Below, piece by piece: positions 8,553 through 40,645 of a stretch of DNA of 64,000 nucleotides (its first letter is position 1; every line of letters starts with the position of its first letter). Source of the stretch: Roseicyclus persicicus. GTDB taxonomy: Bacteria; Pseudomonadota; Alphaproteobacteria; Rhodobacterales; Rhodobacteraceae. The notes below the pieces were generated by a model. The model made no database searches. It was not told the origin of the DNA and worked only from the letters and a program-made list of their open reading frames with translations. Made by a program: the position numbers and the translations under genes. Location: contig NZ_JAAZQQ010000003.1 of assembly GCF_012395815.1 (NCBI RefSeq), positions 310,001-374,000 on the forward strand. The letters run 5' to 3'.

Positions 8553-9542
8553 ATGGACAAGTTCTCCGGCCAAAAGCGCGCAGCCGCGCACCTGTTCCCG
8601 CCGATCGACCCTTTCGACCAGCGGATGCTGGACGTTGGCGACGGGCACCACCTGTACGTGGAACAGTGCGGCAACCCCGACGGCGCGGCGGTCGTGGTGC
8701 TGCATGGCGGGCCGGGCGGGGGCTGCAGCCCCGCGATGCGGCGCTACTTCGACCCGGCGCAGTGGCGGATCGTCCTGTTCGACCAGCGCGGCTGCGGGCG
8801 GTCGCGGCCCCATGCCAACGTGCGGGCGAATACCACCTGGCACCTGGTGGCCGACATCGAGCGCATCCGCAACACGCTCGGCATCGAGCGCTGGGCGGTG
8901 TTCGGCGGCAGCTGGGGCGCGACGCTGGGGCTGATCTACGCAGAGACGCACCCCGACCGGGTGGCCTACCTGGCGCTGCGCGGCGTGTTCCTGTCGATGC
9001 AGCGCGAGCTCGACTGGTTCTACGGCGGCGGGGCGGGGCAGTTCTGGCCCGACCAGTGGGGCCGCTTCTGCGCGCTGATCCCCGAGGAGGAGCGCGGCGA
9101 CCTGATCGCGGCCTACAACCGGCGCCTGTTCTCGGGCGACCTGATGGTCGAGACGCGCTATGCCCGCGCCTGGGCCGCCTGGGAGAACGCGCTGGCCTCG
9201 ATGGACAGCGACGGCGGCGGCGGCGAGAGCCCGGCGGAATACGCCCGCGCCTTCGCCCGGCTGGAGAACCACTATTTCCTGAACAAGGGCTTCCTCGAGG
9301 AGGACGGCCAGATCCTGCGCGACCTCTACCGCATCGCGCAGGTGCCCGGCACCATCGTGCAGGGGCGCTACGACATGATCTGCCCGCCCCTGTCGGCGCA
9401 CAAGCTGCTGGCCGGCTGGCCCGCGGGGCGGCTGCACATGATCAAGGCGGCCGGCCACGCCCTGTCGGAGCCCGGCATCAGCCAGGAGCTGGTGCGCGTG
9501 ATGGGCCAGGTGGGCGAGAAACGGGACCGGTACGGGCTTTAG
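8553..9542 (+). CDS. pip: Prolyl aminopeptidase (proline iminopeptidase)
   Basis: A 329-residue alpha/beta-hydrolase of peptidase family S33 that removes N-terminal proline from peptides in the cytoplasm. Seen: oxyanion loop HGGPGGG (residues 51-57), DQRGCGRSRP, nucleophile elbow GGSWGATL (Ser120), acid loop GRYDMICP and the catalytic His in AAGHAL. An AGGAG lies four bases before the ATG. A TATATA at 8539-8544 is very close to the start, so it is unlikely to be the main -10. The stop codon sits at the edge of an AT-rich foreign patch, so the last few residues (EKRDRYGL) may have been altered by its arrival; this is inference. Confidence 0.93.
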   Translation: MDKFSGQKRAAAHLFPPIDPFDQRMLDVGDGHHLYVEQCGNPDGAAVVVLHGGPGGGCSPAMRRYFDPAQWRIVLFDQRGCGRSRPHANVRANTTWHLVADIERIRNTLGIERWAVFGGSWGATLGLIYAETHPDRVAYLALRGVFLSMQRELDWFYGGGAGQFWPDQWGRFCALIPEEERGDLIAAYNRRLFSGDLMVETRYARAWAAWENALASMDSDGGGGESPAEYARAFARLENHYFLNKGFLEEDGQILRDLYRIAQVPGTIVQGRYDMICPPLSAHKLLAGWPAGRLHMIKAAGHALSEPGISQELVRVMGQVGEKRDRYGL

Positions 9543-9559
9543 TTTCGTGGACCATCTTT

Positions 9560-10048
9560 ATGGCGAGTGATGTTGTTTCCGAGAGCAATAGAGAGCTTAG
9601 GTTTGATTTTCCTTGGCCTTTCTGGGCTTACGGAAAGTATGAATTAACCTTTGCGTTTAACGAAGCTGCGCATGCGGTAGGCCAACAGCCTCACTACTTC
9701 GATGTTCATCCCCTGTTTAAGGAACGTCCGCGCTTTATTGTCCTATCTAGCACTGAAAAGCGCTCAGTAGTTGTTTTGGGCGACGGAGATCAGGCACTTG
9801 GTGAGGCTTGGCTGAGAATTGGACTGTTTGTGAAAGGTGGCGGAAGTCTTTTTTCATGGATTTGTGAAACGTATCGATATCGTCGAGCTTGGCGCGATGA
9901 ACTGACAACCGAGATGGATGGGGAGCGCGCTGGTCCCTTTGTTCTGCCTAGTCGGGAGAAGGACCTGATTTGTAGGTTTCGCAGGCATGATCAGGCACTG
10001 ATGCTGGTTTCAGGAACCTTCTTTGCCCGTTTATCGCGTTGCTCTTGA
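9560..10048 (+). CDS. Unknown protein on AT-rich foreign patch (162 aa)
   Basis: I do not recognise this 162-residue protein. It starts at ATG 9560 (MASDVVSESNRELRFDFPWPF) and is rich in aromatic residues and arginine, with no signal peptide or clear membrane helix. Its base composition is strikingly different from everything around it: the 60 bases 9601-9660 contain only 23 G or C, while neighbouring genes are around 70 percent. Codon use includes many TTT, AAA, TTA and GTT. Its 3' end overlaps the last 58 bases of dnaE2 on the other strand. The patch spans roughly 9543-10070. Horizontal transfer is the best explanation. No integrase, transposase or flanking duplication is visible. Confidence 0.6.
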   Translation: MASDVVSESNRELRFDFPWPFWAYGKYELTFAFNEAAHAVGQQPHYFDVHPLFKERPRFIVLSSTEKRSVVVLGDGDQALGEAWLRIGLFVKGGGSLFSWICETYRYRRAWRDELTTEMDGERAGPFVLPSREKDLICRFRRHDQALMLVSGTFFARLSRCS

Positions 10049-12957
10049 AATAAATTACTCCTTGTCAGCCACCGCCGGTCGATCCCCGGGCTCAGCCGGT
10101 CGCGGATCAGCGCCACCGGGTGGGTGCGGAGCGTGAGGCGCAGCGCCACGTAGTCCTCCACCACCGCCTCGCCCTCGTTCATGGCGGGCAGGTGCACCGC
10201 CGGTTCCACGATCCCCTCGCCATCCAGATCGCCCGAGAACAGCGGCAGTTCCCCCTTGGGCGCCAGCGCGCGGGCGGCCCAGAGCGCGTCGCGCCGGGGG
10301 ATGCCGAGGGCGGCGAAGGCGTCCGCTTCGGCCAGGATCGTCAGGGTCCGCGCGTCCAGCCCCGCGCGGCGCCACACGTCCTCGACCGCCGTGTAGCCGT
10401 TGCCGCGGGCCGCCGTCAGCCAGTCGGCCTCCTCCTCCCGCATCGCGCGGATCTGGCGGAACCCCAGCCGCAGCGCCAGCGCGCCGGTCTCGGTGCGTTC
10501 CATCACGTTGTCCCAGTGGCTGCGGTTCACGCAGACGGGCCGCACCTCGACCCCGTGCTCGCGGGCGTCGCGCACGATCTGGGCCGGCGCGTAGAAGCCC
10601 ATCGGCTGGGAGTTCAGCAGCGCGCAGGCGAAGATGCCGGGATGGTGGCGTTTCAGCCAGGCCGAGGCGTAGACCAGCAGGGCAAAGCTGGCGGCGTGGC
10701 TTTCGGGAAAGCCGTAGCTGCCGAAGCCCTCGATCTGGCTGAAACAGCGCTCGGCAAAGGCGTCGTCGTAGCCGTTGGCGCGCATCCCGCGCAGGAAGCG
10801 GGTGCGGAACTCACTGACCGACCCGTGCTTCTTGAAGGTGGCAAGCGACCGGCGCAGGCGGTCGGCCTCGTCGGGGGTGAAGCCCGCGCCGGTGATGGCG
10901 ATCTGCATCGCCTGTTCCTGGAACAGCGGCACCCCCAGCGTCTTGCCCAGCACCCGGCCGAGCTCGTCCGAGGGGAAGCTGACCGGCTCCTCCCCGTTCC
11001 GGCGCCGGATGAAGGGGTGCACCATGTCGCCCTGGATCGGCCCGGGGCGGATGATCGCGACCTGGATCACCAGGTCGTAGAAGCAGCGCGGGCGCATCCG
11101 CGGCAGGAAATTCATCTGCGCGCGGGATTCGACCTGGAACACGCCCAGCGTGTCGGCCCGGCACATCATGTCGTAGACCGCGGGGTCCTCGGGCGGCAGG
11201 GTGGCGAGGTTGTAGTCGGTCTGGTGATGCAGGCGCAGCAGCCCAAAGGCCTTGCGGATGCAGGACAGCATCCCCAGCGCGAGGATATCGACCTTGAGGA
11301 TCCCCAGCGCGTCGATGTCGTCCTTGTCCCAGCAGATGACGGTGCGGTCCTCCATCGTGGCGTTCTCGATCGGCACCAGCTCGTCCAGCCTGCCTTCGGT
11401 GATGACGAAGCCGCCGACATGCTGGCTCAGGTGCCGGGGAAAGCCGATGATCTCCTCGATGAGCGCGATGGTTTGCTTCAGCCGCGGGCTGTCGGGGTCG
11501 AGGCCGATCTCGCGCATTCGGTCGATCTCGGGCCCGTGTTTCGACCATGACCCCCAGATCTGGGAGGACAGCGCCGACAGCACGTCCTCGGACAGGCCCA
11601 TCGCGCGGCCCACCTCGCGCACGGCGCGCTTGCCGCGGTAGTGGATGACGGTGGCGCAAAGGCCGGCCCGGTGGCGGCCGTAGCGTTCGTAGATGTGCTG
11701 GATCACCTCTTCCCGCCGCTCGTGCTCGAAATCGACGTCGATGTCGGGCGGCTCGTTCCGCGCCTCCGAGACGAAGCGTTCGAACACCATCGTCCCGATC
11801 TCGGGGCTGACGGAGGTGACGCCCAGGGCATAGCAGGTGATCGAGTTCGCCGCCGACCCGCGCCCCTGGCACAGGATGTCGCGGGAACGGGCGAAGGCGA
11901 CGATGTCGTGGACGGTGAGGAAATAGGGCTCGTAGCCGAGCTTGCCGATCAGGCGCAGCTCGTGGTCGAGCTGGTTTTGCGCGCGCTCGGGGATGCCCTG
12001 CGGGTAGCGCCAGTGCAGCCCCGCCTGCGCCAGCCGTTTCAGCCGGGCGGCGGCGGTTTCGCCGTCGGCGATCTCGGAGGGGTATTCGTAACGCAAGGAC
12101 CGGATGTCGAAAGCCAGCCGTGCCGCGATCTCATCCGCCCGGTCCACGGCGTCTTCATGCCCGCGGAAGATGCGCCGCATCTCGGCCTCCGACCGCAGGC
12201 GCTGTTCGGCATTGGCCTGCGCGGCGGTGCCCAGCTCCTCGATGCGCAGCCCCTCGCGGATGCAGGTCAGGATGTCGGTCAGCCGCCGGCGCGAGCCGTG
12301 GTGCATGATCGGCCGGGCCGAGGCGACGGTGGGCAGGCCCAGCCGGTCCGCCAGCCGGGCGGCGCGGGTCAGGCGGGCGGCGTCCTGCCCGTCATAGGCC
12401 GGCGCCATCAGGAGGTGCAGTTGCGGGCGCAGCGCCGCGACCAGTCGCTCGGCCCCGGCCAGCCAGCCGGGCGCGGGGCGGTCGGGCGCGTGGAGCAAGA
12501 GCTCCAGCCCCTCCGCGCGGGCCAGCACATCGTCGAGCGCCAGGTCGCAGTCGCCCTTTCTCGTCCTGAGCCGCCCGGTGGACAAAAGGCGGCACAGGCT
12601 GGCCCAGCCGGTCCGGTCGCGCGGCAGGGCGGTGATCGCCATGCCGTCCCGCAGGACAAGGCAGGCGCCGGGCAACAGCCGCGGCACGTGGTCGATGGGG
12701 GCGCGGGGCGGATCGGGCAGATGCGCGGGCTTCGGCGGGCCGACGGGGTCGGCGCGGGCGGCCTCGGCATCGGCGATCTCCTCGGCGATCTTCTTCAGCT
12801 CGGACCAGGCGCGGACCACCCCCGCCACTGAATTGACGTCGGCGATGGCAAAGGCCGACAGGCCCAGCAGCGCGGCGCGGCGCGCGTGTTCCTCGGGGTG
12901 CGAGCCACCGGTGAGGAAGGTGAAGTTGGAGGTGATGGAGAGTTCCGCGAATCCCAT
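9991..12957 (-). CDS. dnaE2: Error-prone DNA polymerase DnaE2, apparently truncated at the C-terminus
   Basis: DnaE2 (ImuC) is the C-family polymerase of the damage-inducible mutasome, working with ImuA and ImuB on lesions. Seen: PHP domain opening FAELSITSNFTFLTGGSHPEE, catalytic aspartates in PPDIDVDF (Asp405, 407, 409 region) and KVDILALG (Asp557), fingers and helix-hairpin-helix regions. The frame has 988 residues, whereas family members are usually about 1050-1170. It diverges after LRTHPVALIRDRL into an AT-rich 20-residue tail (SNLFQEQRDKRAKK...) encoded by the foreign patch, so the C-terminal OB-fold is missing. A LexA-like site lies just upstream (12971-12985). The polymerase core is intact; activity in vivo is uncertain. 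Confidence 0.9.
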   Translation of the reverse strand: MGFAELSITSNFTFLTGGSHPEEHARRAALLGLSAFAIADVNSVAGVVRAWSELKKIAEEIADAEAARADPVGPPKPAHLPDPPRAPIDHVPRLLPGACLVLRDGMAITALPRDRTGWASLCRLLSTGRLRTRKGDCDLALDDVLARAEGLELLLHAPDRPAPGWLAGAERLVAALRPQLHLLMAPAYDGQDAARLTRAARLADRLGLPTVASARPIMHHGSRRRLTDILTCIREGLRIEELGTAAQANAEQRLRSEAEMRRIFRGHEDAVDRADEIAARLAFDIRSLRYEYPSEIADGETAAARLKRLAQAGLHWRYPQGIPERAQNQLDHELRLIGKLGYEPYFLTVHDIVAFARSRDILCQGRGSAANSITCYALGVTSVSPEIGTMVFERFVSEARNEPPDIDVDFEHERREEVIQHIYERYGRHRAGLCATVIHYRGKRAVREVGRAMGLSEDVLSALSSQIWGSWSKHGPEIDRMREIGLDPDSPRLKQTIALIEEIIGFPRHLSQHVGGFVITEGRLDELVPIENATMEDRTVICWDKDDIDALGILKVDILALGMLSCIRKAFGLLRLHHQTDYNLATLPPEDPAVYDMMCRADTLGVFQVESRAQMNFLPRMRPRCFYDLVIQVAIIRPGPIQGDMVHPFIRRRNGEEPVSFPSDELGRVLGKTLGVPLFQEQAMQIAITGAGFTPDEADRLRRSLATFKKHGSVSEFRTRFLRGMRANGYDDAFAERCFSQIEGFGSYGFPESHAASFALLVYASAWLKRHHPGIFACALLNSQPMGFYAPAQIVRDAREHGVEVRPVCVNRSHWDNVMERTETGALALRLGFRQIRAMREEEADWLTAARGNGYTAVEDVWRRAGLDARTLTILAEADAFAALGIPRRDALWAARALAPKGELPLFSGDLDGEGIVEPAVHLPAMNEGEAVVEDYVALRLTLRTHPVALIRDRLSPGIDRRWLTRSNLFQEQRDKRAKKVPETSISA

Positions 12958-12970
12958 GACGCGGGAGTAT

Positions 12971-12985
12971 ATTCACGTTTTGTTC
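12971..12985. promoter_or_regulatory. Near-consensus LexA (SOS) box upstream of dnaE2
   Basis: The plus strand reads ATTCACGTTTTGTTC, that is ATTC-N7-GTTC, one base away from the alphaproteobacterial LexA operator GTTC-N7-GTTC. It ends 13 bases before the dnaE2 start. DnaE2 is a standard LexA target in this class, so control of dnaE2 is likely. The glycosyltransferase at 13083 diverges from the same gap and could be affected too, but nothing suggests it. Confidence 0.6.
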
Positions 12986-38924: not shown

Positions 38925-40610
38925 TCAGCCGAAATCGCCCTGCGCGAACCAGCCGCCCGAGACCGCCCCGCCATGGGCGTAGAACAGCCACAGCCGCTGG
39001 CCCCCGGTGGTGACCACGCGCCAGTAGTCGCGCACGCCCGAGCGCCAGTTCGGGTCGTCGAGCCACCATTCCGGCGCCAGGCGCTCGGGGCCCTGGGCGG
39101 CGCGGGTCTCGAAGTCGCGCCCGCGCCAGCGGAACCGGGCTGGCACGTCGGGCATGTCGGGGGCGCCGACCGGCTCGGGGCGGAACAGGGTCAGGGGGCG
39201 GGGCCGCGTGGGGGCGGGCCAGCCGGTGGCGGGCGCGGTCCAGGCGGCGGCCTGGGTGGCCGAGGTCTTTTCGGGGATGTGGCTGTCGGCGGGATGTTCG
39301 CGGGTTATCCGCTCCAGCCCGGTGCGCGTGCCGATCCTGGCGACCAGGTCGTCCAGCGCCTGCGCCGCGCTGCGGTCGGCGCGGGCCTCGGCGGCCACCG
39401 CCCAGCCGCCCTTGTGCTCGGTGGCGTGCAGCGGCTCGGTCAGGGGCGCGACGAGGCGCAGCGTGTCGATGCCGAAGCCCGCGTCGAGGCCGCCGAGCTT
39501 CAGCTCGAACAGGGGGCGCAGGCTGTCGGGGCGGTCGGCGGGGCGGGCGAGGCCGATCTCGATGCGCTCGGTGCCGCCCTCGGCGCGGGTCAGTTCCAGC
39601 CGAAGCCTCCGCGCCCCGCGCCCGCGGGCGCGGAGCTTGTCGCAGAGCACGGGCAGCAGGCGGTCGAGCCCGGCGAGGATGTCGTCCTGCAGGCCGATGG
39701 GCTCCGGCAGGCTGAGGCGGACGGCGAAGTGCAGCGGCGCGCCGGCGGGCGAGATCGGCTCGGGTTCGACGCCGAGTGCCTGGTCCAGCCGGCGCACGAG
39801 GTCCTGCCCGAAGCGCCGCGCGAGGCCGGCCCGGGGCATGCCCCAGAGATCGCCGATGCGGCGGAGGCCCAGCCTTGCGAGCCCCGCGGCGGTGTCGGGC
39901 GTCACGCGCAGCGCGGCGATAGGCAGCGGGGCCAGCGACTGCCGCACGCCGCCCGGCGGCGCGATGCGGGCGACGGCCCCCGGCGCGGCGGCGGGTTCGG
40001 GCGCGGGGCCGCCCTTGACCCAGTGGCGCTTGCCGGCGCGGGAGCGGGTGGCGCGGGCCTCCTGGTCGATGGCGTCGCCGGTCGGGCCGCGGGCTATCCC
40101 GCCGCCGCCGGCGTAGCGCGCGAGCGCCCAGGCCGCCCCCGCGGTGTCGGCGATGCCGGCGCGCACGGTCAGGCCGAGATCGGCGCAATCCTGCTGCACC
40201 TGCGCGAAGAGCGCCGCCTCGCCGCCGAAGAGATGCGCGCAGCCGGTGAGGTCGATCAGCAGCGCCTCCGGCCCTTCCTCGGCGACCCAGGGGCTGAACT
40301 TGCCGGCCCAGCGGCGCAGCGCCGACAGGGTCTGCGCCTCGCGGTCGGGGTCGGCGGGGCGGGTGACGAGGTCGGGGCAGAGCGTGATCGCCTCGGTCAG
40401 CGCCTGCCCACGCGACAGGCCCCGCGCGCTGGCGGCGGCGGTGAGCGAGGCGAGCTGGCGCAGGTTGCCGGTCTCGGTCACGACGGCGAGCGGCACCTCG
40501 GCCAGCGCGGGCTCGGCGCGCAGCAGGCGTTCGGCCGCCAGCCGCGGGAACCACAGCGACAGGATGCGCCGGGTCACGGGCCGGGCGGGGCGGGGGTCGG
40601 GGGCGGACAT
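38925..40610 (-). CDS. imuB: ImuB, catalytically inactive Y-family polymerase of the SOS mutasome
   Basis: ImuB bridges DnaE2, ImuA and the beta clamp during error-prone lesion bypass. The 561-residue protein starts RRILSLWFPRLAAERLLR, where active Y-family enzymes have a catalytic Asp, and continues with LASLTAAASARGLSRGQALTEAITLCPDL, LLIDLTGCAHLFGGE and a C-terminal domain ending DYWRVVTTGGQRLWLFYAHGG. Start ATG 40610 is the first after a perfect LexA box (40631-40645); an upstream ATG (40649) would put the box inside the gene. Unlike most relatives it is not followed or preceded by imuA or dnaE2; the dnaE2 gene is about 26 kb away. Confidence 0.9.
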   Translation of the reverse strand: MSAPDPRPARPVTRRILSLWFPRLAAERLLRAEPALAEVPLAVVTETGNLRQLASLTAAASARGLSRGQALTEAITLCPDLVTRPADPDREAQTLSALRRWAGKFSPWVAEEGPEALLIDLTGCAHLFGGEAALFAQVQQDCADLGLTVRAGIADTAGAAWALARYAGGGGIARGPTGDAIDQEARATRSRAGKRHWVKGGPAPEPAAAPGAVARIAPPGGVRQSLAPLPIAALRVTPDTAAGLARLGLRRIGDLWGMPRAGLARRFGQDLVRRLDQALGVEPEPISPAGAPLHFAVRLSLPEPIGLQDDILAGLDRLLPVLCDKLRARGRGARRLRLELTRAEGGTERIEIGLARPADRPDSLRPLFELKLGGLDAGFGIDTLRLVAPLTEPLHATEHKGGWAVAAEARADRSAAQALDDLVARIGTRTGLERITREHPADSHIPEKTSATQAAAWTAPATGWPAPTRPRPLTLFRPEPVGAPDMPDVPARFRWRGRDFETRAAQGPERLAPEWWLDDPNWRSGVRDYWRVVTTGGQRLWLFYAHGGAVSGGWFAQGDFG

Positions 40611-40630: not shown

Positions 40631-40645
40631 GTTCACTATATGTTC
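40631..40645. promoter_or_regulatory. LexA (SOS) box upstream of imuB
   Basis: The sequence GTTCACTATATGTTC is an exact match to the alphaproteobacterial LexA operator GTTC-N7-GTTC. It ends 20 bases before the imuB ATG. The divergent MOSC gene (start 40704) shares the gap, so it may be exposed to LexA as well, but a role in SOS is not expected for MOSC proteins. Confidence 0.85.

Follow-up and report, generated by a model that had tools for sequence, protein, structure and literature searches.

Does a dnaE2 gene that stops short of the OB-fold encode a damaged polymerase, or one part of a system of which the remainder lies elsewhere in the genome? The question is raised by dnaE2 of Roseicyclus persicicus (9991..12957, minus strand), which encodes a protein of 988 residues and lies in a stretch of 64,000 nucleotides that was analysed as a whole (assembly GCF_012395815.1, contig NZ_JAAZQQ010000003.1, positions 310,001 to 374,000; hereafter the window). 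According to the original prediction an AT-rich insertion had cost the gene its 3' end and, with it, the OB-fold. We found that the dnaE2 frame has lacked the OB-fold for a long time and throughout a clade, and that the fold has not been lost: it survives as a separate gene. DnaE2 is split over two complementary genes that are each preceded by a LexA-type box, that each form one clade, that occur together and that are both under purifying selection. We consider it probable that dnaE2 of the window is the larger half of a polymerase gene that was divided naturally and that the cassette of imuA, imuB and dnaE2 has been broken into four SOS genes, with the OB-fold provided in trans.

The window protein scored 1225.9 bits against the NCBIfam profile NF004225 for error-prone DNA polymerases (cut-off 939), passing as a DnaE2, and covered positions 5-949 of the 1047 of that profile. 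It comprises PHP, Pol3/fingers and HhH2 parts, of which the Pol3-alpha, finger and HHH_6 domains were matched by Pfam. The catalytic residues had been predicted to be intact, and the motifs PDIDVDF (404) and KVDILALG (555), which we take to be catalytic, were indeed found, but the match to the PHP domain was weak (E 0.016, under the Pfam cut-off). The predicted end of the frame, before the OB-fold and inside the AT-rich patch, was confirmed. Pfam detected no OB-fold in the window protein at E ≤ 1 and placed PF01336 at 990-1065 of the full-length DnaE2 of D. shibae; alignment with full-length DnaE2s (identity over the core 49-65%) likewise ended before the fold; and the AlphaFold2 model (mean predicted local distance difference test score, pLDDT, 81.6) ended in helices and a low-confidence tail (residues 959-988, pLDDT < 50), without a C-terminal beta-barrel. 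The conserved sequence of the short DnaE2s runs to '...HPVALIRDRLSPGID' or its equivalent (near residue 964 in the window), and the tails beyond that point vary by species.

The short form is widespread. In a search of 41 genomes the same short DnaE2, with the same end point, was found in each of the 12 relatives from the genus and in four others (G013, G017, G019, G023); the intact gene that had been proposed to be sought in sister genomes was not found in any of these 12. We then sampled 150 genomes of the family, from 150 genera, with the full-length D. shibae DnaE2 as query (E ≤ 1e-150), and obtained a match in 135. Classed by the end of the match these gave 67 short and 67 full cases; G021 and G059 fell into both classes, and G107, G089 and G082 into neither. 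The G021 row (match ending at 980) was removed from the short list because the match runs to the penultimate base of its contig and an OB piece starts the same contig, leaving 66 short genomes, among which the gene lies in two contig pieces in G169 and contains stops inside the match in G112. The median ratio of nonsynonymous to synonymous substitution rates (dN/dS) of the core was 0.119 (78 pairs, 13 genomes of the genus), and the core is under purifying selection; with the end point shared by many independent genomes, this rules out an assembly or frameshift artefact.

The other part of the polymerase was recovered with the C-terminal stretch of the D. shibae DnaE2 as query. In the window's own genome (G000 in the searches) it is encoded on another contig (G000:C1:699005-699382, minus strand) by a gene of 126 codons, the product of which Pfam assigns to the PF01336 OB-fold and which covers NF004225 positions 950-1039 of 1047, complementing the 5-949 of the core. 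One strong stand-alone OB frame per genome was found in 17 of 17 short-DnaE2 genomes (E 4e-35 or better), and in the family sample such a gene was present in 63/66 short genomes versus 2/84 others, so that more than 40% of the sampled genera of the family show the two-gene arrangement. Among the 68 genomes with the OB-fold in a frame of more than 1000 residues only G059 has a solo OB gene besides. This genome carries a full-length cassette with a 100% match to the D. shibae plasmid protein and a short gene on another contig, and may run two mutasomes. The small OB frames of four genomes were set aside in this count: those of G113, G168 and G117 consist of polymerase sequence, then OB, then SRDFH, and that of G021 is the leftover of the dnaE2 that stops at the end of the same contig. 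A further 25 genomes behaved similarly. All 15 that were chosen for a short locus had the solo OB (including Maritimibacter alkaliphilus, Thalassococcus profundi, Ruegeria marisrubri, Phaeobacter sp. CECT 5382, Cereibacter johrii and Sulfitobacter sabulilitoris), and of the 10 chosen for a full-length locus 9 had the OB only inside dnaE2 and one, Ruegeria atlantica (G195), had both. In a class-wide search an OB match was obtained in 97/193 genomes, four of them from within the family (solo in G000 and G207, fused in G079 and G377); beyond the family the matches sit in frames of at least 1,054 residues, bar a few shorter ones (G338, 650; G309, 639; one of G235, 504; G361, 226; two of G373, 132 and 173).

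The solo OB gene is under purifying selection as well (median dN/dS 0.145, 13 genomes of the genus). Its product carries an N-terminal WPRPP-type peptide, which was exact in 46/51 solo sequences, retained as WP in 51/51 and exact in 0/53 full-length sequences (an example is the solo gene at L167:1506-1883, minus strand), and which is possibly a docking motif. With the solo OB as query, a search of PDB sequences returned nothing under E 0.2.

Phylogenies of both halves point to a single origin. The core tree (97 sequences) united the 51 short sequences in one group with support 100, which stayed single when the tree was rooted with other alphaproteobacterial rows, and in the OB tree the 51 solo sequences formed one group with support 98, although the finer shape of that tree is unreliable because it rests on 115 columns and has several long branches. 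The trees omit L136 and L138, in which no OB anchor was found, L099, L102, L119, L121 and L135, which we excluded ourselves, and L109, which did not pass the ending filter. Since each half is one clade, the co-occurrence represents one event followed by long joint retention and not many independent events. In the AlphaFold model of a full-length relative (L114, pLDDT 79.3) the OB barrel (981-1063) is preceded by a low-confidence linker (912-955) and two short helices, and the cut in dnaE2 therefore falls between domains.

The four genes lie in four separate places in the window's genome, with no single cassette. The gene for the imuB-like Y-family polymerase homologue (38925..40610, minus strand; start placed after its box) is found in the window at about 26 kb from dnaE2, and imuA lies at G000:C1:724095-724517. 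The two halves of an alphaproteobacterial LexA site are spaced by N7, and LexA-type boxes were found ahead of the dnaE2 start (GAACAAAACGTGAAT, 12971..12985, minus strand) and ahead of imuB (GAACATATAGTGAAC, 40631..40645, minus strand). We surveyed 97 loci besides the window, 54 full-length and 43 short, counting L109, which had first been classed as short, among the full-length ones on account of its 1073 residues. In the full-length loci imuB is directly upstream of dnaE2 in 53/54 (L102 begins at a contig edge), versus 0/43 in the short loci, one of which (L112) has an imuB downstream on the opposite strand. A box-like match precedes 1/54 full-length genes (L116), and a LexA-type box lies within 160 bases before 42/43 short ones, 38 of these at 20-50 bases from the start; 40 have the form GAACN7GAA(C/T) and 2 the GTTC form (L066, L077), and no such box was found within 160 bases of the disrupted frame in L128. 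The solo OB gene is preceded by GTTCN7GTTC in 50/51 loci, and GAACN7GAAC was found at 8/8 imuB and 9/9 imuA loci inspected in the split clade. As a background, GTTCN7GTTC occurs 3 times in the 64-kb window versus 0.93 expected, one occurrence being the imuB box. For the LexA site of alphaproteobacteria, PMC6473078 mentions a GTTC as well as a GAAC form. From their boxes, the four genes may be under LexA control.

The presumed partners have largely been kept. Among the 17 short-clade relatives a match to ImuB was found in all 17 (split over contigs in G002, G003 and G011) and to ImuA in 16, and in the family sample 61/66 short genomes gave an end-to-end match to the window ImuB, with two pieces in G064 and G147 and partial or weak matches in G105 and G112. 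ImuB of the split clade has an extra segment of about 40 residues that linked ImuBs skip; it contains a conserved GDAIDQEARATRSRA in 8/8 aligned split-clade sequences (L160-L166 and the window ImuB) that is absent from the linked ImuB of the D. shibae plasmid. With an insert of this size, and no OB-fold found by Pfam in the window ImuB at E ≤ 0.01, relocation of the OB-fold into ImuB was ruled out. DnaE2 has been modelled to bind ImuB via its PHP domain and HhH2 region (PMC12926913, available part), and both are retained, as domains, in the core.

From these data we infer joint SOS induction of the four genes, reassembly of the halves in trans in a complex, and a role of the OB protein therein. 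The ancestral imuA-imuB-dnaE2 cassette would have been taken apart in one lineage of the family into imuA, imuB, a dnaE2 core and a dnaE2 OB gene, each with its own LexA-type box, the cut in dnaE2 being placed between the HhH2 region and the OB-fold. Upon DNA damage LexA would be released and all four genes would be induced together; the core would keep the modelled ImuB-binding parts, and the OB protein would most likely dock in trans and restore the grip of the polymerase on DNA.

The alternative that survives best accepts the split and supposes that the OB-fold has left the polymerase: the core would work without it, and the solo OB would be an independent SOS single-strand-binding protein or regulator. 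We hold this to be unlikely, though it deserves consideration. The PDB structure closest to the core model is 2hnh, E. coli Pol III alpha of 910 residues, which we take to be a C-terminally truncated construct. Several further observations agree with a departed OB-fold or otherwise weigh against a split polymerase that reassembles. No recognisable OB gene was found in three of the 66 short genomes (G068, G088, G172), which at E ≤ 5 gave weak matches only (E ≥ 0.009), nor was an ImuB match obtained in G172; two genomes (G075, G085) have a solo OB and no DnaE2 match at E ≤ 1e-150; and in view of these exceptions the partnership of core and OB is not absolute. The weakest of the 63 positive cases, G112, has an OB only 34% identical and a DnaE2 match with internal stops; its OB gene is preceded by a GTTCN7GTTC box. 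The Fisher test for co-occurrence (p = 6e-36) overstates the independent evidence because the co-occurrence clusters in one clade, and the sister group of the short clade in the core tree has a support of just 48. Finally, the C-terminal peptide SRDF[H/R], reported for about 77% of DnaE2 in the available part of PMC3919608, was found neither at the end of the core nor at the end of the OB proteins. Against an independent career of the OB protein stand the LexA-type boxes on both genes, the joint retention of both halves in 63/66 genera, and the conservation of the OB itself: of the 50 columns with at least 90% conservation across 27 fused OBs, 38 have that residue at 90% in 51 solo OBs as well, by which the ancestral role appears to have been kept. 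The solo OB genes of G075 and G085 are located at G075:C4:2083567-2083938 and G085:C148:5954-6292, and ImuB is present in both genomes; the polymerase core has possibly been lost there and the OB kept, or, in G085, which is 91% complete, a contig may be missing.

A second alternative, to which we attach little probability, is that the solo OB is what remains of another dnaE2 copy that decayed, and that the short copy lost its OB separately. Genomes of the family can indeed carry two or three dnaE2 copies (e.g. G014, G021, G059), but each half forms a single clade, the halves complement each other where the profile breaks (949/950) and the genomes that hold them coincide; moreover, this history would leave the present-day system unchanged.

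The proposal that dnaE2 recently lost its 3' end to an AT-rich insertion and was left damaged has hardly any probability left. An insert does exist and makes up the final 24 codons, but the same end point occurs in 12/12 same-genus and 66/150 family genomes, the open reading frame (ORF) of the insert occurs in 2/41 genomes, and the core is constrained. The predicted switch in composition at the dnaE2 3' end was found as described: the insert (9543..10066, 524 bases) has a GC content of 0.48 versus 0.72 across the remainder of the window. That it is joined to dnaE2 was also borne out, since it supplies the final 24 codons and the stop (9991..10065, minus strand), i.e. the unconserved residues 965-988; what it did not do is remove the OB-fold. 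In the genus, the alpha/beta hydrolase gene on the other side of the insert (8553..9542, plus strand; proline-iminopeptidase-like and presumably pip) is kept as convergent neighbour of dnaE2 in 12/12 loci read. An alignment of the junction in seven relatives placed pip and the conserved dnaE2 end directly next to each other in G002 and G005 and at 13 bases in G012, with no AT-rich patch, and found a short, different spacer in G001, G003, G004 and G011; short DnaE2s in insert-free relatives, which the original prediction itself had named as contrary evidence, rule out the insertion as cause of the truncation. The insert is a later, minor event that rewrote the dnaE2 tail only. This tail is under little or no constraint, being near saturation in six 988-residue proteins (proportions of nonsynonymous and synonymous differences 0.72 and 0.80, corrected dN/dS 0.33, 15 pairs).

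The insert carries an ORF of 162 codons (9560..10048, plus strand) antisense to the dnaE2 tail, which among the 40 other genomes was found only in the sister genome G006, at about 75% identity and with a coding-like divergence (dN/dS 0.27; 0.148/0.546). Pfam (above cut-off), NCBIfam and the plasmid collection (E ≤ 0.01) gave no match to it, and viral contigs yielded no relative, which rules out a gene known to these collections. In G009 the gap between pip and dnaE2 (L040, 8524-9297) is about 0.8 kb, without the ORF of the insert and with a GC content of about 0.54 over the first 500 bases past the dnaE2 stop, and this spot may take up foreign DNA repeatedly. In L034, L035, L046 and L047 the gap, at the place where the window has the insert, is filled with several short palindromes, many of them centred on TTGCAA, that are possibly terminators or a repeat family.

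Compared with known systems, the split DnaE2 shares the three components and the LexA-type boxes with the LexA-regulated ImuA-ImuB-DnaE2 mutasome, but its genes are unlinked, the OB is encoded separately, no SRDFH tail was found and ImuB carries the GDAIDQEARATRSRA insert. Cyanobacterial DnaE is likewise a C-family polymerase in two genes, the products of which are joined by a split intein; here the cut is at a domain boundary, and at the break the tails past residue 964 are short and species-variable and the OB protein begins with its short WPRPP-type leader, no intein-like part being noticed at either end, although no dedicated intein search was made. Several DnaE2s without OB domain were noted by Timinskas et al. 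2013 (PMC3919608), and absence of the OB does therefore not exclude membership of DnaE2; these resemble the window protein, but the available part of that paper names no lineage and no OB gene elsewhere. The mycobacterial imuA'-imuB/dnaE2 cassette also has its genes at separate loci, but in the available part of PMC6511836 dnaE2 is one gene, whereas here it is divided. The stand-alone ImuB-C of variant mutasomes (available parts of PMC6511836 and PMC12926913) is likewise a mutasome domain freed as a small protein, that domain being the ImuB C-terminal barrel and not, as here, the OB-fold of the polymerase. In a literature search that covered neither subscription papers nor supplements, we found no paper that describes DnaE2 as split or its OB as a gene of its own, and the terms 'OB domain', 'OB-fold' and 'Rhodobacter' occur nowhere in the main text of PMC12926913.

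More tentatively, the four products could form a four-subunit error-prone polymerase that consists of ImuA, ImuB, the DnaE2 core without its OB-fold and an OB subunit, induced separately, that docks via the WPRPP peptide, perhaps on the ImuB insert. In DnaE polymerases, handling of the single-stranded template is ascribed to the OB-fold, and if such a polymerase exists, detachment of the fold would allow the cell to adjust its grip on the template, and with it mutagenesis, separately from the catalytic subunit. The OB-fold has been detached and yet kept over a large clade, which offers a natural system in which it may be removed, added back or titrated while the catalytic chain is left untouched. 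In many related bacteria a small and easily missed gene with a LexA-type box is added to the likely mutasome, and a dnaE2 that seems to lack its 3' end is not necessarily a damaged gene.

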